NCBI GenBank assembly: GCA_900543205.1
Contig: UQQM01000006.1
Coordinates: 1 to 64,000, forward strand
From: an uncultured Bacteroides sp.
Lineage (GTDB): Bacteria > Bacteroidota > Bacteroidia > Bacteroidales > UBA932
Direction: 5' to 3'
Length of the DNA: 64,000 nt
Shown: one piece after another, positions 30,001 to 64,000 of the stretch
Layout of the letters: every line of letters begins with the position of its first letter
Numbering within the stretch: position 1 is the first letter of the stretch
Position numbers and translations under genes: made by a program
The notes under the pieces: model-generated
What the model saw: the letters and a program-made list of their open reading frames with translations, nothing else
What the model was told of the DNA's origin: nothing
Databases searched by the model: none

Positions 30001-30149
30001 GTGCCTTCTACCACAACGCCGGCGCCGATGAGCGGCTCGCCATTGTCAGCATCAGTGACGGTACCCGTGACTCTGATTGTCTGCGCAAATGCGGTAGCTC
30101 CAAGAAGGGGTATTGCCACGCATGTTGCAAATAATTGGAATAGTTGCAA
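27057..30149 (-). CDS. SusC-like TonB-dependent transporter, start disrupted by a 19-bp duplication
   Basis: About 1030 residues: signal peptide remainder (VAIPLLGATAFAQ), carboxypeptidase-regulatory domain (IRVTGTVTDADNGEPLIGAGV), plug (YLDEVVVTGYMAEKKADLTG; AANGVIIITTKRAQDG) and barrel ending NMVLGLNIGF. The reading frame has no usable ATG at its 5' end. The natural ATG is at 30168-30166 with MKLFQLFAT, but two tandem copies of a 19-bp unit follow. With one copy the frame runs MKLFQLFATCVAIPLLG straight into this gene; with two copies, translation from that ATG shifts and stops after about 34 codons. The coordinate given is a TTG codon in the second copy. As read here the gene is off or poorly expressed. 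Partner SusD lies 25 bp downstream. Confidence 0.85.
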   Translation of the reverse strand: MQLFQLFATCVAIPLLGATAFAQTIRVTGTVTDADNGEPLIGAGVVVEGTTTGTSTDVDGRFELEVEAGSTLEFVYIGYNSIKMAAAAEMDVKMSQDTRYLDEVVVTGYMAEKKADLTGSVAVVKMDEVADIPTGNIMTALNGRVAGMVVSTDGTPGGQGTLSLIRGTTTINNSSPLYVIDGVMTRADVGTIVNSNDIESIQVLKDAASAAIYGAQAANGVIIITTKRAQDGVIKVDFNATLSLQIPRRGIPLLNAQEWGDVYWAAYKYDFGTTPKSIIYGDGEKAQLKLGQPYWEKDGVSMNISDTDWFGEVYRPALMQTYSLSLSKGSKDHVSSLSFNYIDQDGTLKNTDYKSFGTRYSSEYRFFDGRLKIGENLNLTYWTQHKKPRGYEAIERQILAQHPAQAIYASDGTYAGADVDLLGSRQNLVRYIDNEANNIFKSWRIFGNAYIDITPIENLTLRSTFGVNYNPDYSNEFTPAWDEHTRSYTESALDIRMNETLEWVWTNTATYSFEKGIHSATFLLGTEAKKSRVDLLRAQATGFAMTSRDYVYVDVAEGTKTSSNNADIYAMTSYFGKVNYTLADKYLFSATVRRDASSRFGKYNNAGIFPSASFGWKISNEKFMANTRRWLSDLKLRASWGINGNDQIDNTATYSIYNVDIWNGSYNLNGDNTTLASGAVRTQSGNPELRWEQTEQFNLGLDAAFFNNRLALSFDVYDKNTSDMLYLVPVAAIVGEGGSSFQNCASMNNRGMEFIVSWKDVRGDFSYEISANAASYKNKITYLPEDLYYTYGCGNQAAGISNVGLPYGALVGYVVDGLFRTQAEVDEYNAKYDVQYGIPGVGRLRYADVNGDGAITTSDQAYIGSNNPKLLYGLNFSAAWRGWDISMFFSGMVRDAYNSSKLYTDFFPLGEGLGNHSTRLLDAVRGYEDFLETGIYTSDYAAVSTIDTNQEGVQNSWYMEDGSYLKMKNLVIGYTLPKEILSKTKIRTARVYLQAQNIFTLTKYTGPDPESLGYPYPYSFNMVLGLNIGF

Positions 30150-49579: not shown

Positions 49580-50521
49580 TCAGAAGCTGTAGCCCAGACC
49601 GAAGGTAAGCGTGTTCTGCAGCGGAGAATCTCCGGAAGCTATCAGATATGCCAGGTCGAGGCTGACTCCGAACAGCTTGAATCCGGCTCCCACGGATGCG
49701 TAGGAGGGAATCACCGACTTGCCGCCGTAGCGGTAGCCGGCGCGCACCGAAACCATGTCGTCCCAGCAGTATTCCGCGCCGAGGGCGGCGGAAAGCGTCC
49801 CGACGAAATACCAGTCAGCGTCAAGGAGCAGCTCCACACTGTGCACCTCCGCGAATTCTGCCAGATAGCCAGCGCCGAAGGTCAGCGAAGCCGGCAGCTG
49901 GAACTTGTCGCCGGACGCCGATTCGACGGACGTGCCCAGGGAAGAGACTCCGAGCGCAAGGCTGAGGCCGTCAAGTTGCGACATCAGGAAGATATCGGAC
50001 GACACCGCCCCGTAGCTCGCCCCCTCGGCCAGGGAGTTGCCCAGATACTTCACGTTGATGCCGGCCGACAGCCAGGGCATGAATTTCCAGCCCAGACCTA
50101 TGCCCGCCTGCATCTCCGACGGGGAGAAGGAGCCTGAAACGGAGCCGCCGGCATCATAGATATCGTATGCCGCGCCCATTCCGTAGGTGAATCCGGCGGT
50201 TACGCCGAACTTGCCGTTGATATTCCATGCGCCCGCAATGCTGACATTGCCGGTCTCGGAAGCCTGCCACATCTGGTAGCCGGCGGCGACATCCAGCTTC
50301 CTGTCATAATAGGGAACCGCTGCTGCGTTCCTGTATGAAGCGTAGGAGACATTCGTCGTCGAAGCCGTCCCGGCGCCGCCCATGGCCATTGCGGCAGGAT
50401 CATGGGACACACGGCCGAAAGCCATGGCAGAAGACTCCTGGGCGGAAGCGTCAACTGAAAGGACGGCGGTCAGCAAAGCGGCAGCCGCCGAGAATACAAT
50501 ATGCTTTTTCATCATCTTCAT
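49580..50521 (-). CDS. PorV/PorQ-family outer-membrane protein (T9SS-associated)
   Basis: 313 residues. Signal peptide ending SVDASAQ (about 28), then SSAMAFGRVSHDPAAMAMGGAGTA, the PAAMAMGGAG motif that opens PorV/PorQ and FadL-like barrels, followed by YRNAAAVPYYDRKLDVAAGYQMW and a run of beta strands ending LTFGLGYSF with terminal Phe. PorV/PorQ proteins shuttle T9SS cargo from the secretion channel to surface attachment. The adjacent upstream gene encodes a protease with a T9SS C-terminal domain (9 bp apart), which supports the assignment. It might instead be an orphan FadL-type barrel. Confidence 0.78.
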   Translation of the reverse strand: MKMMKKHIVFSAAAALLTAVLSVDASAQESSAMAFGRVSHDPAAMAMGGAGTASTTNVSYASYRNAAAVPYYDRKLDVAAGYQMWQASETGNVSIAGAWNINGKFGVTAGFTYGMGAAYDIYDAGGSVSGSFSPSEMQAGIGLGWKFMPWLSAGINVKYLGNSLAEGASYGAVSSDIFLMSQLDGLSLALGVSSLGTSVESASGDKFQLPASLTFGAGYLAEFAEVHSVELLLDADWYFVGTLSAALGAEYCWDDMVSVRAGYRYGGKSVIPSYASVGAGFKLFGVSLDLAYLIASGDSPLQNTLTFGLGYSF

Positions 50522-50530
50522 GTCTTCTGG

Positions 50531-53137
50531 TTACAATTTCACGACCGTACGGGTGTACTCGCCGCCACCGAAACTGACGTTCACGGTATATTTGCCGGGA
50601 GCATAGCCGCGCATGTCAATCACTGCGGGGTCGAACACGCTGACCTGCGAGGTCTCGTCATATACGAGGGCTCCGGTCGAAGTGCTTATCCTGATGGTCG
50701 TCTCCGCCTCGTCGAGAGTGCGCACGTTGAGATAGTCGCTCACCGGGTTGGGGAACACTTCCAGCGGGGACTCGGGGTTCTTCACGACCACGCTGAAGGA
50801 CAGCGAGCACTGCTCTCCCATGACGTCGGTCGCGGTGACCGTGATTTCGGTATTTCCGAACGCCAGTGCGGTCACGTAGGCCATGTTACCCGTCACGGTG
50901 GCATGGACCGTGCCGGGGCTGCTGTTGGCGATGCTCCACTTCAGGGTCTCTCCGTCGGGGTCGCTGATCAGCCCGGCCAAATCGATTTCGACGGCCTCGC
51001 CCACACGGGTGAGAAGCACGTCTTCGGCAGCGCCGGTCGCGACGGGCGCACGGTTTTCAAGTATGCTGTACTCCACGGTCTCGGAGGCCGATGCACCGTA
51101 AGCGTCGGTGAAGCTGATTTTCGCGCTGTAGTCTCCGACAGGGGCGGCGGTGCCGACGACGGTGAGCACCCACTCGTTCTCCGCGTCTCCTTCAGTGAAG
51201 GTCGCCGCATCGGAACCCGCTTCGAAGCTCATGTTCATATTGTGCCCGTCAGGGTCGGTGACCGTAAAGCTGCGGCGCACGGTCTGGAACGGCCTGATCT
51301 CTATCCTTCCCGTCTCCTCCGAGGCGATTACGGGGGCGTTGTTGGACGTGGTGCTCACAGCCTTTATCTCCGACAGGGCGGAATAGTTGTGCTGATAGTC
51401 GTAGCCCGTGATTGTAACGTAATATGCTGCCGAGAAGTCGAGATCAGGAATCCGGCCGCCGATGGCGTCGCCCACGTTCCTGTCATCCACCGTAACCACG
51501 GCGCTGGCAACATCCTCGGGAAGATTCCTGGGATCGACGCCCTCAAGCAGAGACCTGTCGGTCGAGGCAAGAAGCAGGTAGCCGAACGCCTTGCCGTTGT
51601 CTTCGTCGGCGGTCACGGTCCATTCGAAGGCTATGCTGCCGCCCAGTCCCTGCACCTCATAGTCCTCCACAGGCTCGGGAGGAATCGAGCCTCCGTAGGT
51701 GAAGGCTCCGTAGGCGTCGAGCATGGGGCCGATGTTCTCGCTTGAAGTAATGATATCGGGGTTGGCTCCGCCTATTATCCGCTCACGAAGCATGTCATTG
51801 GTGAAGCCGGGGCCTCCGAACTCCGAAATCAGCAGGGCCGCAACACCGCTCGCGAAGGGGCAGGCCATTGAGGTTCCGTTCATATTGGCGTACCTGTTGT
51901 CCGGGATGGTGCTGTATATCGATGATCCGGGCGCACAGATGTCCACCCAGTCGCCATAGTTCGAATAGCTGGCCTTCCTGCTGTTGGAAGCCACCGCCGC
52001 GACTCCTACCACGCGCTCGTAGTCCGCAGGAACTCCGTAGGGGATATTTTCGTTGCCCGCCGCAAAGAACACGATTCCGCCCTTCATGGGAGAATCGGGG
52101 AGCTGATTGCCATAATTGTCGCAGCCTGCATTGTCGATGAAATAATCGATTGCTGCCTTCTCGTATGACGATATCTCGTCCTCACTCGCCCTCTGCAGCT
52201 CATCAGCGCTGATTATTCCGTTCATGTCGAGGTCATAGTTGCTGCCCCAGCTGTTCTGGGCGATGAGGGCCCCGTTGTCGGCGGCATAGCGTATGGCCTC
52301 AGCCGCTGCCATGGTCTCGATGTATTCGGAGTCTCCGACCTGGCATGACATGATGCGCACGCCCCTGATGCTCCGCTCCGCGTCACCGCCGGCTATTCCG
52401 CTGACTCCTATGCCGTTGTTGTTGACGGCCGAGATGACTCCGGCAATGTGCGTGCCGTGCTCTCCTCCCTCAACGTTGTAGCTGCTGGCTCCCGACATGA
52501 AATTGCGGCTTCCTCCGGGGCCGGCGGGGATGCAGTTGGCAGCAAGGTCCTCGTGGTCAAGGTCCACTCCCTGGTCGACCACGGCGACAATCACCTCCTC
52601 GGAACCGCAGGTGTACTCATCCCATACGCGCTCCACGTTGATGTCGGCGCCCGAATCATTGTAGAAGCCCCACTGCTGGTAATAATAAGGGTCGTTGAAG
52701 GCGGTCAGCTTCGCCTTGCGCGCAGGCTCGGCCTCGATGACGCCCGGCAGCAGGGCCAGGTCGTCAGCAGCTTTGGTCACGGCCGAACGCTCCGGATCCA
52801 GGGTCACTGCGTACCAGAGATGGAGACCGTAACGGCGCTGCCTCTCGAGGAAACGCTCGTCATCGGAGAAAATCCTCCTGACGGAAGTTATCCCGAGCTC
52901 GTCGACGAGTTCGTTGAAGGGCATGGACTTGGTGTAGAGCTTGCCTGCGGAGAAATCGTCTCCGAGCAGGGCTGCGGTCTCTTCGTCGAACTTGACCGCC
53001 ACTTCGGAAGTGTAGGCCGCATCCGGCTGAATCCCGGTCCCGCCGGTCGTCTGCGGTTCTTCCAGTTCGATCTTGGTGCAGGAGAATACGGCAGCTGCCG
53101 CAACCATGCACAAAAGCAGATAATTGTTCCTTTTCAT
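50531..53137 (-). CDS. S8 subtilisin-like serine protease with T9SS C-terminal sorting domain
   Basis: 868 residues. Lipoprotein-like signal MKRNNYLLLCMVAAAAVFSC with Cys20, a propeptide region to about 150, then a subtilase domain with the catalytic triad Asp188 (VVDQGVDLDH), His227 (EHGTHIAG) and Ser423 (NGTSMACP). An EF-hand-like calcium loop is visible at YDLDMNGIISADEL (about 301-314). After it come a fibronectin-like segment, two cadherin/Ig-like repeats (TVTDPDGHNMNMSFEAG; LAGLISDPDGETLKWS) and a type-A T9SS sorting domain (LEVFPNPVSDYLNVRT ... GKYTVNVSFGG). It is therefore probably exported through T9SS and released or anchored at the surface. Having both a lipobox and a T9SS tail is unusual. 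It is followed by the PorV/PorQ-like gene. Confidence 0.9.
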   Translation of the reverse strand: MKRNNYLLLCMVAAAAVFSCTKIELEEPQTTGGTGIQPDAAYTSEVAVKFDEETAALLGDDFSAGKLYTKSMPFNELVDELGITSVRRIFSDDERFLERQRRYGLHLWYAVTLDPERSAVTKAADDLALLPGVIEAEPARKAKLTAFNDPYYYQQWGFYNDSGADINVERVWDEYTCGSEEVIVAVVDQGVDLDHEDLAANCIPAGPGGSRNFMSGASSYNVEGGEHGTHIAGVISAVNNNGIGVSGIAGGDAERSIRGVRIMSCQVGDSEYIETMAAAEAIRYAADNGALIAQNSWGSNYDLDMNGIISADELQRASEDEISSYEKAAIDYFIDNAGCDNYGNQLPDSPMKGGIVFFAAGNENIPYGVPADYERVVGVAAVASNSRKASYSNYGDWVDICAPGSSIYSTIPDNRYANMNGTSMACPFASGVAALLISEFGGPGFTNDMLRERIIGGANPDIITSSENIGPMLDAYGAFTYGGSIPPEPVEDYEVQGLGGSIAFEWTVTADEDNGKAFGYLLLASTDRSLLEGVDPRNLPEDVASAVVTVDDRNVGDAIGGRIPDLDFSAAYYVTITGYDYQHNYSALSEIKAVSTTSNNAPVIASEETGRIEIRPFQTVRRSFTVTDPDGHNMNMSFEAGSDAATFTEGDAENEWVLTVVGTAAPVGDYSAKISFTDAYGASASETVEYSILENRAPVATGAAEDVLLTRVGEAVEIDLAGLISDPDGETLKWSIANSSPGTVHATVTGNMAYVTALAFGNTEITVTATDVMGEQCSLSFSVVVKNPESPLEVFPNPVSDYLNVRTLDEAETTIRISTSTGALVYDETSQVSVFDPAVIDMRGYAPGKYTVNVSFGGGEYTRTVVKL

Positions 53138-53143
53138 AAATCC

Positions 53144-53833
53144 TTAAAGGGTATACAGATAGTCAACGAGGGCAGCGAGGTCGTCGGTCCTGTTGAACTT
53201 TATTTTCCCGGTCTTGATGAACTGCTTGACGGCATCCTTGTCGATGCCGGGGATTCCGAGCACGTCCACCCTCGAGGCCGGCACGAAGCGACCCTTGTAA
53301 TAGATGCCGCTGATTTCCCTCAGTTCAAGGACCTGGCCTTCCGACCTCTCGCTCACGAGGTCGTCGAGGCTGCGGTTCACGGAATAGTCCATCCCGCTGT
53401 TCAGGGCGGACAGGGAGAGTCCGGAGGTGGACGCTATCGAGGACTTGCCGTAGCCTATGTCGGAACTGCTCATGGCATCGGCGTCGATGACCGTCTTGAG
53501 CAGGACCGCGCTGCTGGCCGTGTTCTTCACAATCTTCATCATGCGGCCCTCCACGCACATGTAGGAGTCATCCCCTATCACGAGCAGGGCTATGGTATTC
53601 AGGTCGGCCTGCATTATGATACCGTTCTCGACATAGTGGACGCGCCCGTTCGCGATGTTCACGTTGAGCTTGTCGTAGTTCAGGGTATTGCCCCTGTGTG
53701 TGACTATCCTTCCCTCCCTGAAATCTTCATAGACATACGGCCAGGTGGTAGTAGGTTCGTATTCCACCGCTCCGGCAGCAACGCTGGAGAGCAGGGACAG
53801 GACGGATAGCAGGAGAAGCTTGGGTTTCATCAT
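53144..53833 (-). CDS. Secreted protein of unknown function
   Basis: 229 residues with a signal peptide MMKPKLLLLSVLSLLSSVAAGA. The mature part is mixed: a possible beta section (YEDFREGRIVTHRGNTLNYDKLNVNIANGRVHYV), IIMQADLNTIALLVIGDDSYMCVEG, then a Ser-rich linker and a C-terminal section ending KFNRTDDLAALVDYLYTL. No Cys-based or catalytic motif is recognised. It is 6 bp upstream of the S8 protease gene and so probably co-expressed with it. A role as protease inhibitor, chaperone or cell-surface partner cannot be told. Confidence 0.7.
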   Translation of the reverse strand: MMKPKLLLLSVLSLLSSVAAGAVEYEPTTTWPYVYEDFREGRIVTHRGNTLNYDKLNVNIANGRVHYVENGIIMQADLNTIALLVIGDDSYMCVEGRMMKIVKNTASSAVLLKTVIDADAMSSSDIGYGKSSIASTSGLSLSALNSGMDYSVNRSLDDLVSERSEGQVLELREISGIYYKGRFVPASRVDVLGIPGIDKDAVKQFIKTGKIKFNRTDDLAALVDYLYTL

Positions 53834-53923: not shown

Positions 53924-54802
53924 CTACTTCTTGGTGAAGATAACCTCCTGAGGGAAGTACATGTCATAGTAGCTTATGCTGTTGCCATCAAGGTAGCCCA
54001 GGAACCAGCCGTACTCGGTGGTCAGGGTGCCGTCATCCTCAATCCTCAGGTACCAGTTGTCAAGGGCGACTCCTTGGCTACTGTACTCCGATATTCCGTA
54101 GAACATGATATCCTCTCCGTCGTAGTTGGTGATGACCTGCTCGGCGGCAACGTTGATCATACCGCCGCTGACCACTCCGACAAGGGGTTCGGGCCCGAGA
54201 GGAGCGAACGTATCGGCGATTCCGTCGATGGTGACCTGGTCGAGCGATCCTTCCACTGCGGAAATCGTAATCTCGATGGTGGCGCTTGCTCCCTGCGCAT
54301 CCTGGAGAGTGTTGGAAGTATAGGTTCCAAGGATGTCGGCAAGAGGATTGTCGGTATCCTGGATGGTCACGGTAATCTCCCTGAGCCCGCCGAGGGTATA
54401 GCCGTCGGAGGCGCTGAGGATACGGATGGTGAACTGGGCTTCGCCGTTGGTACCATCAATATCCACGATGTTGACCTTGATTGCACCTTCCGAAGTGCCG
54501 TCGAAGGTCAGAACCCCGTTCGCAGGCTCGATGGAGAAGTTCTCGCCGGCATGGGCGGTGTTCTCAACGACCTCGAAGGTCACGGTAGTGTTGGCACCCT
54601 CAGACCTGGGGAAGGCGAGATCGCCGTCCTTGGTGTAGGCATAGACCGGAATCACCACGGATCCCGCATCCTCCCTGACGGTCAGCGAAGAGGCGTCGAA
54701 GGCCACGAAGGACGAAGTGGTGTATTCGATCTTCTGGTTGCAGGCCGCAAGACCGAACACGAGCGCAGCTCCGGCCGCTATTTTGAAAAACGTCTTGTTC
54801 AT
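53924..54802 (-). CDS. Surface lipoprotein with Calx-beta-like domain (SusE/F-position)
   Basis: 292 residues. Lipoprotein signal MNKTFFKIAAGAALVFGLAAC with Cys21. The N-terminal half has a Calx-beta fold (SLTVREDAGSVVIPVYAYTKDG ... TAHAGENFSIEPANGVLTFDGTSEGAIKVNIVDIDGTNGEAQFTI). The second half is a beta-sandwich of unknown type. It is 19 bp behind susD, the position of SusE/SusF-like accessory glycan-binding lipoproteins. A MetArg-extended start at 54811 is possible; 54802 is preferred because the signal then begins MNKTFF. Ligand unknown. Confidence 0.8.
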   Translation of the reverse strand: MNKTFFKIAAGAALVFGLAACNQKIEYTTSSFVAFDASSLTVREDAGSVVIPVYAYTKDGDLAFPRSEGANTTVTFEVVENTAHAGENFSIEPANGVLTFDGTSEGAIKVNIVDIDGTNGEAQFTIRILSASDGYTLGGLREITVTIQDTDNPLADILGTYTSNTLQDAQGASATIEITISAVEGSLDQVTIDGIADTFAPLGPEPLVGVVSGGMINVAAEQVITNYDGEDIMFYGISEYSSQGVALDNWYLRIEDDGTLTTEYGWFLGYLDGNSISYYDMYFPQEVIFTKK

Positions 54803-54821: not shown

Positions 54822-56348
54822 TTACTCTACAACAGTTACTCCGTAACCCTCGTTCTGCACGAGGTTGAGGTTGGTCTGCATTTCGTGAGTAGGGATGGGC
54901 CAGTTGAAGTGGAAATCGTCGGCAGCCATCACCTTGTCGGCGAAATTGGCTCCGGTGGCCACGGCGTTCGCGGCACCGCTCTGGACGGGACGTCCGCTGT
55001 AGCCCTCACCCCACCTCTTGAGGCAGCTGAAGTACAAGCCTTCGCCCACCACCTCACGATACCACTCGTTGTGGATGTATTCCTCGGTGGCGGGGGTTGC
55101 CGTCGCACGCCTTGCACGCTGCAGGGTCTGCAGTGCGGTGGTCGCGGCAGCGGTGTTGCCGGCCTCGAAGTTCGCCTCGGCCGCAATCAGGTACATCTCG
55201 CTGATGAGGAAGGGCTTGACCGCATGTCCGGAATTGGGCACCTCGGACGAAGGGTTGAGATCCGCATTGCCACGGTATTTGGTGAATACGGAGAACTGCG
55301 AGCTTCCCTCGTTGTACCAGGTTCCGCTGTGGAATGAAGGATAGTCGCCGCTATCGAACCACTGTGCGAGCCTGAGGTCGTTCGCATCGTAGGCGTCGAG
55401 CAGAGTCTGGGAAGGAATATACTGCGCATGATAGTAGAGTCCCCTGTCGGGATCGTTGCTCATGTTGGTATAAATCGCATGTGTGCCGATACCTTCGCTT
55501 GGTGATGCGTAGAACTGGAGCACGGGCTCATTGCCGTTGTCCGAAGACCACTCGTTCGCCATCTGCGACGCAGTGCTGGAGAGGGAATATCCGGCGTCGG
55601 AATCAATCACCCTCTGGGCATAGCTTGCAGCCTGACCGTAGTCCTGGGTGTCAAGATAGTAGCGGGCATACATGAAGTTCACCGCATCGATGGTGGGGCG
55701 CTGTGCCCTCACCTCGCCGGGGACTCCAGCAAGCAGGAAGGCGGCAGAGTCGAGGTCGGCCTTGATCTGGTCATAGACCTCGGCGACGGTGGACCTTGCA
55801 GGACGCGCGTTCTGGTCATATTCGGTCACGATGGGCACGCAGAGATCCTGGTCTGCGGTCTCAGGGTTGTATACCTTGCCGAAATGCCTTGCCAGATGCA
55901 TGTAGGCGAAAGCCCTGGCGAGGAAAGCCTCTCCCCTCGCTACGTCCGCAGCTGACTTGAGCTCTTCAGGGACAACCCTGGCACCTTCGATGAAGATGTT
56001 GAAGTTCTTGATTGATACATAGGGATTCGACCAGTTCAGCTCCACGAACTCGCTGCTCGGGCCGAAGGAATTGTCGCCCCTGTGCTCGGGCCCCATGTTG
56101 TTGCCATAGTCCGCAGCGGCGTTGAAATAGTTGACCATAACGTCGGGCAGCATGTCGAAGGTCCCGGACTCGCATGCCCTGAAGCAGTACATCACGTTCG
56201 CCTCGAAGCCCTCGAGGTCGGACTCGCTGGTAATCAGCTGGTCTCCGGGATTGTAGCTTATGGTACCCTTGGGTATGAGATCCAGATTGCAGGATACCGT
56301 GCCGGCCAGAAGGGCGCCTGCCGCTATATATTTGATTATATTCTTCAT
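54822..56348 (-). CDS. SusD-like lipoprotein (left switch-controlled operon)
   Basis: 508 residues. Lipoprotein signal MKNIIKYIAAGALLAGTVSC with Cys20, then NLDLIPKGTISYNPGD. The core has ELKSAADVARGEAFLARAFAYMHLARHFGKVY, and the C-terminal region KPFLISEMYLIAAEANFEAGNTAAATTALQTLQRARRA; the family ending is IPTHEMQTNLNLVQNEGYG. Partner of the SusC 22 bp upstream. Since susC starts within the right arm of the left inverted repeat, susC, susD and the lipoprotein gene would all respond to inversion. Substrate unknown; no glycosidase gene accompanies this operon. Confidence 0.93.
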   Translation of the reverse strand: MKNIIKYIAAGALLAGTVSCNLDLIPKGTISYNPGDQLITSESDLEGFEANVMYCFRACESGTFDMLPDVMVNYFNAAADYGNNMGPEHRGDNSFGPSSEFVELNWSNPYVSIKNFNIFIEGARVVPEELKSAADVARGEAFLARAFAYMHLARHFGKVYNPETADQDLCVPIVTEYDQNARPARSTVAEVYDQIKADLDSAAFLLAGVPGEVRAQRPTIDAVNFMYARYYLDTQDYGQAASYAQRVIDSDAGYSLSSTASQMANEWSSDNGNEPVLQFYASPSEGIGTHAIYTNMSNDPDRGLYYHAQYIPSQTLLDAYDANDLRLAQWFDSGDYPSFHSGTWYNEGSSQFSVFTKYRGNADLNPSSEVPNSGHAVKPFLISEMYLIAAEANFEAGNTAAATTALQTLQRARRATATPATEEYIHNEWYREVVGEGLYFSCLKRWGEGYSGRPVQSGAANAVATGANFADKVMAADDFHFNWPIPTHEMQTNLNLVQNEGYGVTVVE

Positions 56349-56370: not shown

Positions 56371-59367
56371 CTAGAAAGTAATCTCTATACCTCCGAGCAC
56401 CTGCTTGGAGTTACCGGCGACTCCGAGTGCGATGTTGCGGTTGAGCTCAGGGTCGATTCCGGAGTATTTGGTGAAGGTCAGGAGGTTACGTCCCGTGACG
56501 GTGATTCTGAAGCCCTTGAGCACGCCGTTTGACCATGCGAGAAGGCTCTCAGGGAGAGAATAGCCTATCTGAAGGTTCTTCAGACGCAGGAAGGAAGCGT
56601 CCTCGATAAGGTGGGAGTCGAACTGCATCTGAACGCCGGAACTCCAGTCGGGATACTTGGCATCAGTGTTGTCGGGAGTCCAGAAGTCAGCCACGTCCTT
56701 GTTCTGGTTCTCGGTCGGAGCGGTGTTCGGGTTGGCATAGAAGAACGCATCGTTGTTGACCATGTTCTTGCCGAGCACGTAGGAGAAGTCTGCCTGGACT
56801 GAAAGGCCCCTCCAGCCTCCGGCCAGAGTGAAGCCTCCGGTGATGGGAGCGAATATCTGCTTGCCGGTGTTCTGTATCAGCTCGTCCTCGTTGAAGGTCT
56901 TGGTGACCCTCTCGGGATCCATGGTGGTCACGTCCTTGTTCTCACCGGGCAGATACCACATGGGCTGACCGTCGGCGGGGTCGACGCCCGCATAGATAGG
57001 ATAGTAGAGGGATACGGGCTGGCCCACCACGTAAGCGACTCCGGTGCCTGCAATCTCCCAGCGCTGCCTTCCGTCGAACAGCTCGAGAATCTTGGAGTGG
57101 TTGTAGTTGAAGGTGGTATTGAACCTGAGGAAGTGGTCAGAGCCCCTGAGGATGTCCACGCCGAGGGTGATGTCGATACCCCTGTTGCTCATCGAGCCCA
57201 CGTTCTGCATCACCTCGTCGAAACCGGTGGTGTAGGGATTGGGCACGTCCATCAGCATGGAGGAGGTGGTCCTGTCGTAGAACTCGAAGGCGAAGTCGAC
57301 GCGGTCGAATACGCGTCCGGAAAGGCCTACGGTCAGCAGGGCCTGCTGCTCCCAGGTCAGCTGGTTGTTGGCGGGCTGGATTACCGCGAGACCAGAATTA
57401 TCCTGATAGCTTCCGCTGGCGCCTACGAGACCGAGGGACTCATAGTCACCGATTTCCGCGTTACCCTGGGTACCGTAGCTGGCCTTGAGGTCGAGGGCGT
57501 TGATCCATCCCTGTGAGGCCATGAAAGGCTCCCTCCTGATGTTCCACCTGAGACCGGCTGACCAGAAGGTCGCGTTCCTGACTGCGGAGCCGAAACGTGA
57601 GGATGCGTCGTTACGCACGGTCACGTCGGCATAGTACTTGTCGAACAGGGAGTAGTCGGCATGTCCGAAGAAGGAGAGGAACTTGGACTGTGTGGATGAC
57701 TCGGATACGCGGTAGGTAGACTGCTGACCGTTCTGGAGGATCTGGGTCCTGTCGTCGGTGTAGCCCTCGGCGTATGCCTCGAACAGTCTGTAGTCGTTGA
57801 TGATGCCCTCCTGTCCGAGAAGCACTGAAAACCTGTTGTTCACGTCTATGTCCATCGAATACTCGAGAGTATTCGTGACAGTCGCGGTATAGTTGATGTA
57901 GCTGTCCTTCAATACCACGGAAGTGGCGCCGAAATCATTGGCCATGGTAGCCGAAGAGCTGGCGTTCCTCAAGCTGATGGAACCGTCAATACCGGCCCTG
58001 CTCACGAACTTGAGGTTCTTCACGGGCTCGATTTCCACGTATGCGCTTCCGTTGACACCGTAGCGGTCGGTGACGTCGGGCATGTTCTCAATATAGTAAT
58101 TGGGATTCAACATTCCCAGGTCGGGAAAGTAATCCTCATACACGTTGCCGTTCTCGTCGAGCGCCGGGAACAGAGGGTTGAGGAGGTAGGACAGACCTCC
58201 GGCCATATAGTTGGAGTTGTCGGCGGACGAACCCCAGTTGCCGTTCTGCTGGTTGGAGTCGAGCGAGAGGTTGAGGTTCACGCCGAACTTGAGCCAGTTG
58301 TTGGGATGTCCCTGCAGGTTGGAACGCAGGGTGTAGCGGTCGTAGAAATTTCCGATGGTGTAGCCCTCCTGGTGGTACTGGGAGGCAGATACCATGTATG
58401 CGACGGTCTTTCCGCCTCCTTCGATGGTGATGTCGTTCTGGTACTGGGGAGTAACCACGTTCATGAAGTACTCGTACCACTTGGTGTCATGGGTGAAGCC
58501 CTTGTCGATATAGTTGGTCTTTACCCAGGACTCGCTGTGAAGGCCTGACCTCACCCAGAAGTCCATGAGCTCGGAGCCGCTCATCATGTTGTTGTAGAGC
58601 TTCATGCTCGCCAAGGTGGAGATTCCGTACTGTGAGCGCACTGTCACAGAAGCGTCCTCGTTGTAGGAACCGGCCTTGGTGGTCACGTAAACGACGCCGT
58701 TGGCGGCACGTGAACCGTAGATTGAAGTGGCGGCCGCGTCCTTGAGGATGCTGATGCTCTCGATATCGTTGGGGTTCATCGCCATGATGGCTCGGGATGA
58801 TGAAGGGATACCGTCAATCACATAGAGAGGGGTGGTGCTGGAGTTCAGGGAGCCGACTCCGTGAAGGGTCATGGAGACCGCGTTGTCTCCGGCGACTCCG
58901 GACATCGAGAGAACCTGCAGACCTGCAACCTGGCCCTGGAGCTGGTCGAGGGCTGAAGAAGAAGGTGCGTTCTTGAGGGTCTCGGAATTCACGGTCTGGA
59001 CTGAACCTACGAGGTGCTCCACGCTCTTCGCCGAACCGTATCCTATGACCACGGTCTCCTCGAGCACCTCGGTGTCGGGATTCATCTCCACGTTCACCTC
59101 GGTCCTTCCGTTTATCTCGACTTCCAGTTCTTCATAGCCGATCGCTGAGAATTTCAGCACTGCGTCGGAAGGTGCGTTGATGGAATAGATACCGTCTGCA
59201 TCCGATGAAACTCCGTTCATGGTACCGCTTACCATGACGGATGCGAACGGAACGCCTTCGCCTGAAGACGCGTCGGTGATGACTCCGTACACTTCCCTGT
59301 CCTGGGCGAATGCACAAAGCGTCACAAACGCCGAGAAGGCGCTTAAAAACAGCTTCGCTTTTTTCAT
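56371..59367 (-). CDS. SusC-like TonB-dependent transporter (left side of the invertible segment)
   Basis: 998 residues from the ATG at 59367. Signal peptide MKKAKLFLSAFSAFVTLCAFAQ, carboxypeptidase-regulatory domain (VYGVITDASSGEGVPFASVMV), plug with LEETVVIGYGSAKSVEHLVGS and AANGVVYVTTKAG, and a long barrel ending SKQVLGGIEITF. The first seven codons and the 40-bp leader are part of a 62-bp inverted repeat shared with the opposite susC at 60341, while the rest of the two proteins differs substantially. An upstream GTG six bases earlier is in frame but the ATG is shared by both copies and preferred. In the orientation read here its upstream region lacks a good -7/-33 pair. Confidence 0.93.
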   Translation of the reverse strand: MKKAKLFLSAFSAFVTLCAFAQDREVYGVITDASSGEGVPFASVMVSGTMNGVSSDADGIYSINAPSDAVLKFSAIGYEELEVEINGRTEVNVEMNPDTEVLEETVVIGYGSAKSVEHLVGSVQTVNSETLKNAPSSSALDQLQGQVAGLQVLSMSGVAGDNAVSMTLHGVGSLNSSTTPLYVIDGIPSSSRAIMAMNPNDIESISILKDAAATSIYGSRAANGVVYVTTKAGSYNEDASVTVRSQYGISTLASMKLYNNMMSGSELMDFWVRSGLHSESWVKTNYIDKGFTHDTKWYEYFMNVVTPQYQNDITIEGGGKTVAYMVSASQYHQEGYTIGNFYDRYTLRSNLQGHPNNWLKFGVNLNLSLDSNQQNGNWGSSADNSNYMAGGLSYLLNPLFPALDENGNVYEDYFPDLGMLNPNYYIENMPDVTDRYGVNGSAYVEIEPVKNLKFVSRAGIDGSISLRNASSSATMANDFGATSVVLKDSYINYTATVTNTLEYSMDIDVNNRFSVLLGQEGIINDYRLFEAYAEGYTDDRTQILQNGQQSTYRVSESSTQSKFLSFFGHADYSLFDKYYADVTVRNDASSRFGSAVRNATFWSAGLRWNIRREPFMASQGWINALDLKASYGTQGNAEIGDYESLGLVGASGSYQDNSGLAVIQPANNQLTWEQQALLTVGLSGRVFDRVDFAFEFYDRTTSSMLMDVPNPYTTGFDEVMQNVGSMSNRGIDITLGVDILRGSDHFLRFNTTFNYNHSKILELFDGRQRWEIAGTGVAYVVGQPVSLYYPIYAGVDPADGQPMWYLPGENKDVTTMDPERVTKTFNEDELIQNTGKQIFAPITGGFTLAGGWRGLSVQADFSYVLGKNMVNNDAFFYANPNTAPTENQNKDVADFWTPDNTDAKYPDWSSGVQMQFDSHLIEDASFLRLKNLQIGYSLPESLLAWSNGVLKGFRITVTGRNLLTFTKYSGIDPELNRNIALGVAGNSKQVLGGIEITF

Positions 59368-59409
59368 AAGCACTTACTTTAATTAAACATTATATACTAA
59401 CTACACGTT
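59348..59409 (-). repeat. Left inverted repeat of the susC switch
   Basis: 62 bp; its reverse complement matches 60299-60360 at 60 of 62 positions. It runs from AACGTGTAGTTAGTATATAATG through the susC ATG (59367) into codon 7. The two differences are a C/T in the leader and an A/G in the sixth codon. Part of the repeat lies in the coding frame on both sides, so recombination anywhere in it leaves both genes intact. Confidence 0.95.
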
Positions 59410-59423
59410 ATCTTTCTAACCTC

Positions 59424-59441
59424 CGCCCTATTAAAGGGGCG
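59424..59441. promoter_or_regulatory. Short leader hairpin next to the left repeat
   Basis: CGCCC (59424-59428) pairs with GGGCG (59437-59441) around an A/T-rich loop. The equivalent place next to the right repeat carries a similar hairpin, and both follow the shared bases GAAAACGCCC on the susC strand. It may be a recombinase accessory site or mRNA leader structure. Confidence 0.5.
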
Positions 59442-59485
59442 TTTTCTTGTGCACACAGAAATTTCCATCCCAAAATTCAACTACC

Positions 59486-60106
59486 ATGGCAACATACGCA
59501 TACATCAGAGTCAGCACGCAGACTCAAACGCTTGAGAATCAGAGATTTGAAATCGAACAATGGTGCGGCAGGCACGAACTGGGCATCGACTTCTGGATTA
59601 CGGAGACCGTGTCCGGCACGGTGCGCTGGGAAAAGCGCAAGCTCGGGCGCACGGTGCGCAGGATGAAGAAGTCCGACCTGCTCGTCTGCACGGAAATCTC
59701 GCGGCTGGGGCGCAACATGCTGATGATAATGTCGGTGCTGAACGCGTGCACCCAGAAAGGTATCCATATCCGCACGATCAAGGACAATTTCAACCTCTCC
59801 GACAGCATCAACTCCAAGATAATAGTGTTCGCGTTCGCCCTCGCCGCCGAAATCGAGAGGAACCTCATATCGCAGCGCACCCGCGAGGCGCTTGCGGCGA
59901 GAAAACAGGCGGGAGTGCATCTCGGACGGCCTCCGGGCCCTTCGGGCAAGCTCTGCAGGGTCATGGCCGACCTTCCGAGAATCAACGAGATGCTCGCCGG
60001 CGGCGCCACGAAGACCGCAATGGCCCGCATGTACAAGATTCACCGTAACACATTGAATAAATGCCTGAAAGTGCAGAATCAGCAAAATGCAGTTATTACG
60101 GGATAG
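59486..60106 (+). CDS. Serine recombinase of the Mpi invertase family
   Basis: 206 residues. The catalytic domain starts ATYAYIRVSTQTQTLENQRFEIEQW with the nucleophile Ser in YIRVS (Ser9), the Arg-containing motif VCTEISRLGRNMLMIMSVLNACTQKGIHI, and the E-helix FAFALAAEIERNLISQRTREALAARKQAG. The C-terminal helix-turn-helix is TKTAMARMYKIHRNTLNKCL. Length and pattern are those of small DNA invertases (Hin/Gin/Mpi), not of large integrases. It lies inside the repeat-bounded segment, in the orientation of the right susC. The GTG/ATG at 59447 upstream is not needed; ATG 59486 matches the family start. Confidence 0.93.
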   Translation: MATYAYIRVSTQTQTLENQRFEIEQWCGRHELGIDFWITETVSGTVRWEKRKLGRTVRRMKKSDLLVCTEISRLGRNMLMIMSVLNACTQKGIHIRTIKDNFNLSDSINSKIIVFAFALAAEIERNLISQRTREALAARKQAGVHLGRPPGPSGKLCRVMADLPRINEMLAGGATKTAMARMYKIHRNTLNKCLKVQNQQNAVITG

Positions 60107-60218
60107 TTTGCTTACGAATCGTTATTTTGGGGCGGTGAATTATATCGAATTGCAACCACCTCAATCGGATATGATTTTAATCTTTTTTCGGTAAATTGTA
60201 AATCAATAGTTTAGAAAC

Positions 60219-60248
60219 TTGGATTTCTAAAATTATTTGCTAGTTTTG
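60219..60248 (+). promoter_or_regulatory. Outward promoter within the invertible segment
   Basis: TTG (60219-60221), 19-bp spacer, then TAGTTTTG (60241-60248), an exact TAnnTTTG -7 box. It points at the right susC with a leader of about 86 nt to the ATG at 60341 that includes the hairpin at 60271 and the inverted repeat. The mirror position on the left side has only GAATTTTG (59478 to 59471) and no -33. Confidence 0.75.
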
Positions 60249-60270
60249 CGAGAAATTTGCTTATGAAAAC

Positions 60271-60286
60271 GCCCATTAAAATGGGC
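60271..60286 (+). promoter_or_regulatory. Leader hairpin next to the right repeat
   Basis: GCCCAT (60271-60276) and ATGGGC (60281-60286) make a perfect 6-bp stem with a TAAA loop, 13 bp before the right inverted repeat. It is in the susC leader and matches a related hairpin at 59424-59441 on the other side. Confidence 0.6.
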
Positions 60287-60298
60287 AGATTCTGACGA

Positions 60299-60360
60299 AA
60301 CGTGTAGTTAGTATATAATGTTCAATTAAAGTAAGTGCTTATGAAAAAAGCGAAACTGTT
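60299..60360 (+). repeat. Right inverted repeat of the susC switch
   Basis: 62 bp, reverse complement of 59348-59409 apart from two positions. Contains the susC ATG (60341-60343) and codons for MKKAKLF. Confidence 0.95.
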
Positions 60361-63300
60361 TCTTACCGCCCTTTCGGCATTGCTGGCGGTCGGCGTTTCT
60401 GCGCAGAACATCACTGTGACCGGAAACGTGACCGACGCATCCACGGGCGAAGGTATTCCGTTCGCATCCGTCATTGTCAAGGGCACGACCCAGGGAGTCG
60501 CAGCCGACGCCGACGGCTATTATGCCATCGAGACACCCGCAGACGGAGCATTGGAGTTCAGCTCCATCGGCTACATGACGCAGGAGATTGCCGTGGAGGG
60601 CAAGACCTTCGTGAACGCCGAGCTTGAACCCGACAACGAATTCATCGACGAGACCATCGTCGTGGCCTACGGAGTACAGAAAAAGTCCTCCTTCGTGGGA
60701 GCCGCCGAGCAGATCAGCGGAGAAAAACTTCAGAACATGAGTTCTTCCAACATCTCCAAGTCACTTGAAGGTGCCGTAGCAGGACTCCAGACCTCAAGCT
60801 CATCCGGCACCCCCGGTTCTTCGGCCAACATAATCATCCGAGGCCTCGGCTCCGTGTCCGCATCGCAGTCACCTCTGCTCGTAGTTGACGGCGTACCTTA
60901 CGAGGGCAGCCTCAACTCCATCGCCTCCAACGACATCGAGTCAATAACCGTGCTCAAGGACGCGGCAGCCAACTCCATGTACGGAGCGCGCGGTTCCAAC
61001 GGCGTGATCATCATAACCACCAAGAGGGGAACCTCCGACCGCGTCAGCGTCACCTTCGACGCCAAGGTCGGCGTCAACTCGCGAGGCGTGCCCGCATACG
61101 ACGTGATCACCAATCCCGGCGACTACTACGAGATGACCTGGGAGTCCATCAGGAACGCCGTCTACTACGGCGGACAGATGTCTCTCGGACAGGCCAACGC
61201 ATACGCTTCGGGAGCCCTGATCCGCGACTATCTGCGCTATAACGTATACAAGGGCATAAGCGACACCGAGCTCATCGACCCGACCACCGGGAAGCTCAAC
61301 CCCTACGCCTACGACCTCAAGTGGACCGACAACTGGAACGAGGACGTGTTCCGCAACGGAGTGCGTCAGGAGTACACCGTGACCGCCAGCGGCGGAAACG
61401 ACAACACCCAGGCATATCTGTCGATTTCGACTCTCGACGACGAGGGCTACGTTCCCTCCTCCGGATTCAACCGTATATCCGTGCGCGGAAAAATCGACCA
61501 GACCATAGGCAAGTACATCAACGTGGGCCTGAACCTGGCGTACTCCAACACCACCCAGAACCTCTACAACTCGTCAGAGGGCAGCGGCAGCTACTCCAAC
61601 CTGTTCTATTTCGGACAGAACATAGCGCCCATCTATCCTATCTACCAGTATGACCTGGAGACCGGCGAAAAACTCTACGACAACAACGGAGGAGACCTCT
61701 ACGACTGGGGTGAGAACCGTCCCTACGGCCAGCTCTCCAACCCTTACGGCCAGCTCATGACCTCCAAGAACGAGGTGATTTCCGACAACATCTCTTCAAG
61801 AGGATACATCAACATCCAGATTCTCAAGGACCTCAAGTTCACCGCCAACGTGGCCTACGACGTCTTCCTCGACAAGTACGACTACTACACCACCCCTGTG
61901 GGAGGTGACGCCGAGACTGTGAACGGACGCGGAAGGCAGCAGACCAACCGCCACTCGGCGCTGAACGCCAACCAGCTGCTGAACTATACCCCCACCTTCG
62001 GAGACCACAGCCTCAACATCCTGCTCGGTCACGAGACCAAGAGCGATGTCAGCTATGTGCTGAGCGGACAGATGACCAACTTCGTCGACCCCAACAACTC
62101 CGACTTCTCCAACGCCGTGGTATACCAGAACCTGACATCCAACACTTCCGAGTATTTCCTTCAGGGAATCTTCGGGCGCGCCGAATACAACTATGCCAAC
62201 AAGTACTACCTGTCGGCCTCCTACCGTATGGACGCGTCCTCAAGGTTTGCACCCGACAAGAGATGGGGTGACTTCTGGTCAGTGGGCGCCTCCTGGAACG
62301 CAAAGCAGGAGAACTTCCTGATCGGAGTGGGCTGGCTCGACGCCCTCAGGATCAAGGCCAGCTACGGAACCCAGGGCAACGACAACATAGGCGTGACCAA
62401 GGTATACGAGGACCTCTACACCATCAACAGGATTGACGGCGAGGCCTCCATCGTGAAAGTGTTCCGCGCCGCTCCGGACGTGACATGGGAGAAGTCCGAC
62501 AACTTCAACGCCGGCTTCGAGGCAAGGCTGTTCGACAGGCTCTCAATCAACGCCGACTTCTTCATCAAGGAGACCAAGGACATGATCTACTACCGTCCCC
62601 TCTCCCCCAGCCAGGGCGACCCCGCCACGCAGCTGGTCAACGACATGGACATGAAGAACACCGGTGTCGAGTTTGAAATCAGCGCCGACCTCATCAAGAC
62701 TCCGAACGTGCTCTGGACCGTGAGCGTGAACGGCACCCACTACAAGAACGAAATCACCAAACTGCCTTCCGACCAGCCTCAGGACGGCTACAACAGCGGA
62801 ACCTACTGGAGGGAGCTCGGCGGTTCGCTCTATGACTTCTATCTTCCCGAGTTCGCAGGAGTCGATTCCTCAACCGGAGAGGCTCTGTACAATGTCTACA
62901 CGGAGAGCGGCAATAAGGGCGAACTCACCGGAACCACCACTTCTGCCACCAACGCGACCAACAGGGCCACGGGCAAGAGCGCAATTCCTGACATCTACGG
63001 AGGATTCAGCACCTTCCTGTCCGTCTACGGCTTCGATTTCAGCGCCGCATTCGCATATCAGCTCGGAGGCTGGACCCTCGATTCCAACTACGCATCCCTG
63101 ATGGGAGGCGGCACCGCCGGCACGAACTGGCACAAGGACATCTACGACAGGTGGACTCCCCAGAACACCGACAGCCAGATACCGAGGCTCGACAACGGCA
63201 ACCTCAACGCCAACCAGACCTCGACCCGCTTCCTCACCAGGGCTTCCTACCTGAGCCTCAGGAATCTGACCATCGGCTACACCTTCCCCAAGAGAATCGC

Positions 63301-63466
63301 CGAGAAGATTGCCATGCAGAACCTCAGGATCTTCCTGACCGGAGACAACCTCTGGTACATCTCCGCGAGAAAGGGACTTGACGTCCGCCAGTCGTTCAGC
63401 GGAGAGACCGGATTCACCTACTCCGCACTCAGGACTGTCTCTGCCGGAATTTCCCTCACCTTTTAA
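60341..63466 (+). CDS. SusC-like TonB-dependent transporter (right side of the invertible segment)
   Basis: 1041 residues. Signal peptide MKKAKLFLTALSALLAVGVSAQ, carboxypeptidase-regulatory domain (ITVTGNVTDASTGEGIPFASVIV), plug start FIDETIVVAYGVQKKSSFVGA, RGSNGVIIITTKRG, and a barrel ending SALRTVSAGISLTF. Its 5' end lies in the right inverted repeat and is driven by the good promoter at 60219-60248, so in the sequenced orientation this operon should be the active one. Beyond the repeat the protein is only a distant relative of the left SusC, which implies different ligands. An in-frame GTG two codons upstream is not preferred. Confidence 0.94.
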   Translation: MKKAKLFLTALSALLAVGVSAQNITVTGNVTDASTGEGIPFASVIVKGTTQGVAADADGYYAIETPADGALEFSSIGYMTQEIAVEGKTFVNAELEPDNEFIDETIVVAYGVQKKSSFVGAAEQISGEKLQNMSSSNISKSLEGAVAGLQTSSSSGTPGSSANIIIRGLGSVSASQSPLLVVDGVPYEGSLNSIASNDIESITVLKDAAANSMYGARGSNGVIIITTKRGTSDRVSVTFDAKVGVNSRGVPAYDVITNPGDYYEMTWESIRNAVYYGGQMSLGQANAYASGALIRDYLRYNVYKGISDTELIDPTTGKLNPYAYDLKWTDNWNEDVFRNGVRQEYTVTASGGNDNTQAYLSISTLDDEGYVPSSGFNRISVRGKIDQTIGKYINVGLNLAYSNTTQNLYNSSEGSGSYSNLFYFGQNIAPIYPIYQYDLETGEKLYDNNGGDLYDWGENRPYGQLSNPYGQLMTSKNEVISDNISSRGYINIQILKDLKFTANVAYDVFLDKYDYYTTPVGGDAETVNGRGRQQTNRHSALNANQLLNYTPTFGDHSLNILLGHETKSDVSYVLSGQMTNFVDPNNSDFSNAVVYQNLTSNTSEYFLQGIFGRAEYNYANKYYLSASYRMDASSRFAPDKRWGDFWSVGASWNAKQENFLIGVGWLDALRIKASYGTQGNDNIGVTKVYEDLYTINRIDGEASIVKVFRAAPDVTWEKSDNFNAGFEARLFDRLSINADFFIKETKDMIYYRPLSPSQGDPATQLVNDMDMKNTGVEFEISADLIKTPNVLWTVSVNGTHYKNEITKLPSDQPQDGYNSGTYWRELGGSLYDFYLPEFAGVDSSTGEALYNVYTESGNKGELTGTTTSATNATNRATGKSAIPDIYGGFSTFLSVYGFDFSAAFAYQLGGWTLDSNYASLMGGGTAGTNWHKDIYDRWTPQNTDSQIPRLDNGNLNANQTSTRFLTRASYLSLRNLTIGYTFPKRIAEKIAMQNLRIFLTGDNLWYISARKGLDVRQSFSGETGFTYSALRTVSAGISLTF

Positions 63467-63484: not shown

Positions 63485-64000
63485 ATGAAAACAATGAAAA
63501 AATACCTCATAGTGCTTGTCGCGGGCCTGTTGGCAACGGTAGTGTCCTGCGAAAAGAACTTCGATGTGAAATACAGCGGATACCTCACAGGCTCCAGCGC
63601 CTCGCAGATGGTTTCCGAGGACCCTTCCTTCCTGAGCTCCTACGTACAGGGTCTCTACTCCTGGATGATCACTCCCGGCATCGCCTACGACGGACACGAT
63701 GACTTCGGCTATCTGTCCTGCCTGATGATTTCCGACTTCATGGGTCAGGACGTCGTCCTGGAAGGCTCGCAGAACTGGGGAGCCTTCGACTACCAGTTCA
63801 CCTACGGAGGAGCCATCTACGTGCGCGTATACCAGTACTGGAGCGAGTTCTTCACGCTGATCAACAACTCCAACGCGATCATCGACTTCTTCGTGGCCGA
63901 CCAGGATCCCACCGACGCCACCTCAAGGGGCTATCTCGGACAGGCCTACGCCGCAAGGGCCCTGGCATACATGAACCTGGTCCTGTATTTCCAGGACCCC
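63485..64000 (+). CDS. SusD-like lipoprotein, 5' part (runs off the window)
   Basis: 172 residues visible. Lipoprotein signal KKYLIVLVAGLLATVVSC with Cys, then EKNFDVKYSGYLTGSSASQMVSEDPSFLSSYVQGLYSWMIT and the SusD helix SRGYLGQAYAARALAYMNLVLYFQDP. In-frame ATGs at 63470, 63485 and 63494 are possible starts; 63485 gives a normal signal length. Partner of the preceding SusC, 18 bp downstream. Confidence 0.9.
   Translation, partial: MKTMKKYLIVLVAGLLATVVSCEKNFDVKYSGYLTGSSASQMVSEDPSFLSSYVQGLYSWMITPGIAYDGHDDFGYLSCLMISDFMGQDVVLEGSQNWGAFDYQFTYGGAIYVRVYQYWSEFFTLINNSNAIIDFFVADQDPTDATSRGYLGQAYAARALAYMNLVLYFQDP

Follow-up and report, generated by a model that had tools for sequence, protein, structure and literature searches.

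The Hin switch of Salmonella carries its invertase gene within the inverted segment and a promoter at the segment's far end, with one operon driven directly and a second controlled via a repressor. In Campylobacter fetus, the sapA system uses a single promoter on an invertible segment to serve divergent surface-protein genes; the like 5' ends of these genes also serve gene exchange, and the inversion involves a larger segment and homologous recombination. Here we analyse a locus in a 64,000-nucleotide stretch of an uncultured Bacteroides sp. (contig UQQM01000006.1 of assembly GCA_900543205.1, positions 1 to 64,000; hereafter the window), in which a serine invertase gene stands between two divergent susC genes, each the first gene of a SusCD importer operon. 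As in Hin, a serine invertase gene lies inside the proposed segment; unlike in Hin, an operon lies at each end. Compared with sapA, the locus has a dedicated invertase, and its candidate crossover sites, a pair of short dyads, lie outside the gene starts.

Several related devices have been described. Hin and its hix sites are mentioned in PMC11868660. In B. fragilis the Mpi repeat is ARACGTTCGTN; the invertible capsule promoters of B. intestinalis have the repeat GTTCGTTTAA, and their transcripts start within the proximal repeat (PMC8375218). These promoters resemble what is proposed here in that a promoter flips, the sites are similar and the transcription start lies near the proximal repeat. 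They differ in their segments of 183-186 bp (B. intestinalis) and in turning operons ON and OFF at several loci, whereas at the present locus the invertase gene lies inside the segment, the site is apparently local and its centre varies from locus to locus. DNA inversion at SusC/SusD loci is also known: Tsr0667 carries out multiple shufflon-type inversions at SusC/SusD clusters of Bacteroides (PMC4747536), and invertible regions in or near susC/susD genes of Bacteroides differ in inflammatory bowel disease (PMC10939037). The Tsr0667 shufflon reshuffles gene clusters, whereas here the promoter would move and the genes would stay intact. In the invertible promoters of Bacteroidales resistance genes, an invertase is likewise adjacent to a promoter of the same consensus (-33 TTTG, -7 TANNTTTGY); a choice between two operons is not stated in the part of that paper used here (PMC8748976).

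Precedents thus exist for sites of Mpi type, for invertible promoters and for selectors with a single promoter, and by analogy the switch works like a hybrid of them, with the site and enzyme of Mpi, the invertase placement of Hin and the single promoter of sapA. Among the papers listed in a literature search, judged by their titles and the beginnings of their abstracts, none dealt with a two-operon SusC promoter selector or with inversion in Cryptobacteroides; an earlier description is possible. The reading that we favour, with a probability of roughly 0.8, is that an Mpi-type invertase flips the segment holding its own gene so that one promoter serves either SusCD operon.

Layout of the locus and the proposed inversion

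The features on which this reading depends are as follows.

59439..60272, no strand: predicted invertible segment, about 834 bp, delimited by the dyad centres
59486..60106, + strand: serine invertase of Mpi type, 206 residues, within the predicted segment (open reading frame and profile searches)
59433..59444, - strand: candidate crossover dyad on the left, AAACG-CC-CCTTT, matching at 9 of 10 arm bases and centred at 59438-59439
60267..60278, + strand: candidate crossover dyad on the right, AAACG-CC-CATTA, matching at 8 of 10 arm bases and centred at 60272-60273
60218..60248, + strand: predicted outward promoter, -33 CTTG (60218-60221), 19-base spacer, -7 TAGTTTTG (60241-60248)
59348..59409, - strand: leader repeat of susC1, comprising the 5' untranslated region (5'UTR) and the gene start with its ATG and nearly seven codons; outside the predicted flipping segment
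60299..60360, + strand: leader repeat of susC2, of the same composition; outside the predicted flipping segment
56371..59367, - strand: susC1, 998 residues, TIGR04056 at 665.7 bits; predicted OFF in the orientation shown
60341..63466, + strand: susC2, 1041 residues, TIGR04056 at 732.9 bits; predicted ON in the orientation shown

An initial annotation had placed a serine invertase gene between 62-bp inverted repeats that hold the leader and ATG of two divergent susC genes. Comparison of open reading frames, domains and repeats agrees with this: the arms (59348-59409 and 60299-60360) are identical at 60 of 62 bases, the susC genes start at 59367 (-) and 60341 (+), and the middle part measures 889 bp as described. 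The first seven codons, said to lie in each repeat, are nearly all there, the coding part ending at the second base of codon seven. A wider inverted arm pair of 275 bases has 72% identity, about as much as two susC paralogues share at their starts. Two copies of a 30-base leader fragment (at most three mismatches) are present in the window, against 0 of 100 dinucleotide shuffles, and the leader and site patterns of the switch have no match elsewhere in the window. Each susC gene is intact, and its product passes the SusC/RagA model. Both genes lie entirely outside the dyads, so that the exchange of gene segments that characterizes a shufflon is not seen, and the claim that inversion leaves both reading frames intact is supported.

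The invertase has a Resolvase domain (PF00239, E 4e-33 in a Pfam profile search) and a YIRVS motif whose Ser10, which we take to be the catalytic serine, is aligned in a comparison with PDB structures; it is thus a small serine recombinase. It aligns to the PDB 'DNA-invertase' entries 4m6f (E 3e-17) and 3uj3 (E 8.5e-17) and to gamma-delta resolvase chains. Its best NCBIfam model is the Mpi family (PRK13413/NF009949), at 258.4 bits, below the curated Mpi equivalog cut-off of 272 bits. Since the Mpi family is the best model, and B. fragilis Mpi inverts 13 regions (PMC4747536), the protein could be a master enzyme serving many distant promoters, the locus merely housing its gene. We consider this improbable. 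In a search for the 21-base site (at most three mismatches) among 26 relatives' genomes, a set outside which the window's own genome lies, 29 of the 37 matches are at the switch, although more degenerate sites would escape such a search. Of the other eight matches seven were inspected; four stand before a susC, and three show no susC as judged by eye.

The initial annotation had taken the 62-bp repeats, start codons included, as the recombination sites. This is not supported: dyads with matched central dinucleotides lie inward of the repeats, at a distance of 23 bases on the left and 20 bases on the right. The flipping segment would therefore be about 834 bp long, and on inversion each leader would stay with its own gene. 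The two-way selector that had been proposed is well supported, having an on-board invertase and one outward promoter; it is the anatomy proposed for it that changes.

Under the favoured mechanism, the segment is bounded by two AAACG-NN-CGTTT dyads and contains, besides the gene of the invertase that would act on them, a single promoter, next to the right dyad and pointing outward. The strands would be exchanged at the central dinucleotide, which in the window is CC on the left and on the right; the segment would flip, and the promoter would read into susC2 in the orientation shown or into susC1 when flipped. The transcript would begin with a 5'UTR of about 86-89 nucleotides containing the dyad and the shared leader, and each cell would transcribe one of two SusCD operons, of which operon 1 is protease-linked. 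The leaders would not be sites; over longer times they would be joints for the replacement of susC bodies. The sequences show the layout and its conservation, the matched dinucleotides, a promoter on one side and relatives with swapped operons; flipping in the living cell, a sole promoter and mutual exclusion of the operons are what we infer from them. If so, one of the two importer operons would be silent in each cell and the choice would be swapped at random. SusC proteins are abundant at the surface, and the choice could therefore set sensitivity to diet, phage and immunity together.

Candidate crossover sites, promoter and orientation among relatives

Relatives were collected in two surveys, both of genome collections with one genome per species. 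A scan of GTDB species genomes with the invertase gave 38 loci, mostly from Bacteroidales metagenome-assembled genomes (MAGs) and four from Candidatus Cryptobacteroides. In the genus of one of them, L001 (Candidatus Cryptobacteroides avistercoris), 84 of 300 genomes had an invertase match at E <=1e-40; loci were obtained for the best 30 of 101 matches, of which 25 had not come up in the first survey, and close relatives are therefore favoured in the sample. Removal of nine duplicates (eight of L101-L125, and L022) left 55 distinct loci including the window. The two sides were compared in the 47 loci whose flanks both reach 450 bases or more; eight cut by contig ends were left out. An outward susC stands on both sides in 33 of the 47, on one side in eight and on neither in six, and the susC pairs vary from locus to locus. 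One promoter with divergent genes at both ends, the arrangement of a two-gene selector, is present as far as sequence can tell. A viral collection contained no relative of the switch.

Reading outward from the invertase, the site in the relatives' loci is the dyad AAACG-NN-CGTTT, sometimes as part of a longer palindrome, such as CTGCACATATAAACG-CT-CGTTTATATGTGCAG at the left of L011. It has the same arms at both ends and corresponds to the Mpi repeat ARACGTTCGTN, with the centre CC in the window versus TT in Mpi. When a dyad was counted at 8 or more of 10 arm bases, the central two bases being unscored, 35 loci had one at both ends, and the central dinucleotide of the best candidates agreed in 34 of these. 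In 20,000 permutations the mean agreement was 10.0 and the maximum 20. The sole mismatch, L009, is a tie, and its alternative dyad (CT) matches and adjoins a promoter scoring 10/10. Six kinds of matched dinucleotide occur (CC 13, CT 12, AC 4, GT 2, TC 2, GA 1). Serine recombinases require a matching crossover dinucleotide at both sites, and central bases that vary between loci yet match between ends are what would be expected of it. The invertase clade would supply natural serine-recombinase sites with at least six crossover dinucleotides, on which the matching-centre rule can be tested in nature. Decay of the sites, leaving a relic fixed in one orientation in this organism, would fit the window's right dyad with its 8 of 10 arm bases; it is very unlikely given an invertase reading frame that is intact with its YIRVS serine, two intact susC genes and matched dyad centres.

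The promoter was scored against the Bacteroides consensus -33 TTTG / -7 TANNTTTGY (PMC8748976), with 10 consensus bases. In the window it lies 18 bases inside the right dyad and faces susC2. The single promoter that the initial annotation had put in the segment is borne out by comparison with relatives and not by the window alone, whose right end is equalled in score by 18% of its shuffles. Among 32 loci with susC on both sides, a promoter of at least 9/10 stands beside the right dyad, at the invertase's 3' end, in 22 and beside the left in none; at a threshold of 8/10 the counts are 25 right ends and four left ends. Only 1.1% of shuffled right ends reach 9, and 9.8% reach 8 (3100 trials). A promoter between inverted recombination sites, the defining arrangement of an inverton, is found in sequence across relatives. 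A promoter in the leader was also considered and set aside: when the stretch from dyad to gene start was scanned, one of 64 reached 9/10 versus 3.3% of shuffles, and nine of 64 reached 8/10 versus 28%. This rate below that of shuffles indicates that the leaders carry no promoter of Bacteroides type.

The orientation of the operons also differs between relatives. In L011, relatives of both susC-susD pairs of the window are swapped around the invertase, with a susC1-type gene (59%) and its susD (46%) on the right and a susC2-type gene (66%) and its susD (57%) on the left. In L001, where the invertase is 88% identical, the susC2 orthologue (89%) is on the left, that is, on the opposite side. When flanks with a DNA identity of at least 78% were paired, nine of the 21 pairs lay on opposite sides; the pairs are not independent, several sharing a locus, and in one of them, L002/L124, the L002 flank is something other than susC.

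This limit is one of several points that weigh against the selector. Bodies of susC are also exchanged between loci, so orientation counts alone are no proof of inversion, and among the compared loci, with their one genome per species, there is no pair showing both orientations within a species. The second susC of L001 is not a susC1 orthologue (about 30%). In L011, homologues of the S8 protease and of the 313-residue protein of operon 1 occur on both sides (44% and 47% on the right, 36% and 47% on the left) and are therefore useless for telling the sides apart. The two site matches of the window are not significant by themselves, since 15 of 100 shuffles give two, and the case for the site depends on the relatives. 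L001 has no counted right dyad and L018 no counted left dyad; weaker ones are visible by eye in both. At the right end the promoter scores 5-6/10, which is none recognisable, in L014, L020, L021 and L110 and 7-8 in six other loci, and the left end of L016 also scores 8. No promoter of the invertase gene itself was identified in the window; the gene starts only 47 bases from the left dyad centre, and its promoter may therefore lie in whichever leader stands on its left side. Contig ends near the invertase were examined as a sign of mixed orientation and discarded: gene starts less than 500 bases from the low contig end, counted by eye, number 10 among 101 invertase matches and nine among the 150 matches listed for the control gene EF-Ts, which is no clear excess.

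The last of these points is a scan for sigma-70-type promoters, which finds TATAAT in both leaders (four sites in the region versus 1.7 expected). It speaks for a simple ON/OFF switch of one operon, the other susC having its own promoter in or near its leader. We regard this as improbable, since a Bacteroides-type promoter is practically missing from the leaders, as above, third operons in two genomes (G006 and G014) have the site and no such promoter, and susC stands on both sides in most loci.

As a separate observation, L016 and L139 have two left dyads and carry promoter-like sequence at both ends. Judging from these sequences, they may be a double-promoter variant.

Leaders as probable joints and additional operons

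The leader seems to be a joint at which, or just behind which, susC bodies are exchanged, as several sequence comparisons indicate. L020 and L021 have in common the invertase (99.7% DNA identity) and, on the right, the flank with its susC (93% identical across 5.7 kb including the segment), and their left leader is the same through the third codon; their left susC bodies differ at paralogue level. In the pairs L010_L/L012_R and L006_L/window susC2, the first ~100 codons are at or near paralogue level and the remainder is orthologue-like; L016_L/L024_R has a milder dip in identity at the susC start. L027_L is a mosaic with an L009_L-like start of 60 codons and an L009_R-like body.

Such mosaic starts mean that recombination in or near the leader does occur, and within a locus the two leaders can be nearly identical (0.99 in L011 and L028, 0.92 in L001, 0.87 in the window) against 0.61-0.75 for the susC bodies behind them. 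Both observations would suit a crossover within the 62-bp repeats themselves, with either the invertase or homologous recombination flipping the 889-bp middle. This explanation was dropped once the inner dyads emerged and we consider it unlikely: the dyads with their matched dinucleotides sit inside the repeats, and leader identity is only 0.60-0.76 in the good-dyad loci L003, L005, L013, L014 and L020-L022. Among leaders of other loci too, the partner leader is the best match in six of 24 loci (L001, L006, L011, L028, L031 and the window) and not in the remainder, and on these sequences the concerted evolution of leaders is only partial.

A leader common to susC genes genome-wide, as a shared target of a small RNA (sRNA), was considered and rejected: in G001, a 1.6-Mb MAG, the only full matches are the two copies at the switch, the third match covering 14 bases. 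Across six genomes the leader core has 18 copies, 12 of them at switches, and one of the six others stands before a susC. The FopS sRNA of B. thetaiotaomicron pairs near susC start codons (PMC11697453), and by analogy pairing of a FopS-like sRNA at the leader is possible. The single match in an Rfam scan of 59000-60700 fell far short of its gathering score, which gives no known regulatory RNA in the leader, and the RNA fold of the 5'UTR is unremarkable (z -1.13).

Further operons stand behind some of the switches.

L077:6664 with L075 (G006): third, apparently promoterless susC operon behind a two-operon switch
L133:5153 (G014): third, apparently promoterless susC operon behind a two-operon switch

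In contig C6 of G006, a third perfect site with the same leader stands 82 bases before the contig end, behind a terminator-like hairpin seen by eye. Contig C89 starts within that leader and runs into the third susC operon, and is presumably the continuation of C6. In G014, a perfect site lies ~14 kb behind the right site and is followed by a third susC. Upstream of the third sites of both genomes there is no Bacteroides-type promoter (best 6/10). Additional site-susC junctions, lying at contig ends or close to them, occur in G025 and G017, that of G017 with its own promoter (9/10); these may be other switches or the missing ends of known ones.

We tentatively suggest, at somewhat less than even odds, that the switch is an expandable platform whose flipping segment brings a single promoter to at least two operon sockets. 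Each socket would combine a leader, start codon included, with a dyad bearing a two-base address that matches. SusCD operons from a shared pool would be swapped in at the leader and the susC N-terminus, and extra promoterless sockets would be queued behind, to be reached by larger inversions. Matching central dinucleotides would in that case keep different switches from crossing. On the favoured reading of the switch, the invertase clade would also illustrate how a repertoire of importers can change while the leader in front stays constant.

Operon contents and related invertases

The remaining genes of the two operons in the window are the following.

54822..56348, - strand: susD1 (SusD-like_3, SusD_RagB)
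53924..54802, - strand: operon 1 protein with a Calx-beta match just below the cut-off (PF03160, 26.1 bits versus 27)
53144..53833, - strand: operon 1 protein of 229 residues without a Pfam match (open reading frame and Pfam search)
50531..53137, - strand: operon 1 protease of the subtilase family (S8) with a C-terminal sorting domain (PF00082, PF18962)
49580..50521, - strand: end of operon 1, 313-residue protein without a Pfam match; homologues stand beside S8 in relatives
63485..64000, + strand: putative susD2, cut by the window end, named from its position behind susC2 and from a homologue behind the susC2 relative in L011

The label 'PorV-like' for the 313-residue protein is our assumption. 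An S8 homologue is found on at least one side in 11 of 13 more widely fetched switch regions and on both sides in three (counted by eye, the reach of the flanks varying), and the third operon of G006 has one as well. Judging from these sequences, importers at the switch are often protease-linked. From this we infer that the selected importers may take up peptides or proteins. Two further open reading frames of the window, 16292-19243 and 27057-30149, of about 1000 residues each, are possibly additional susC genes.

Other Mpi-like invertases were also met with. Second Mpi-like invertases, 44-51% identical to the query, occur in switch-bearing genomes (L049, L050 and L051 in G007, G009 and G001), and two others (L033 and L036) have GT-centred dyads at their flanks, where no susC was found. 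The invertase genes of L020, L021 and L022 are 99.5-99.8% identical, against about 90-92% for their susC flanks, a contrast in sequence that suggests recent transfer of the segment between related genomes.

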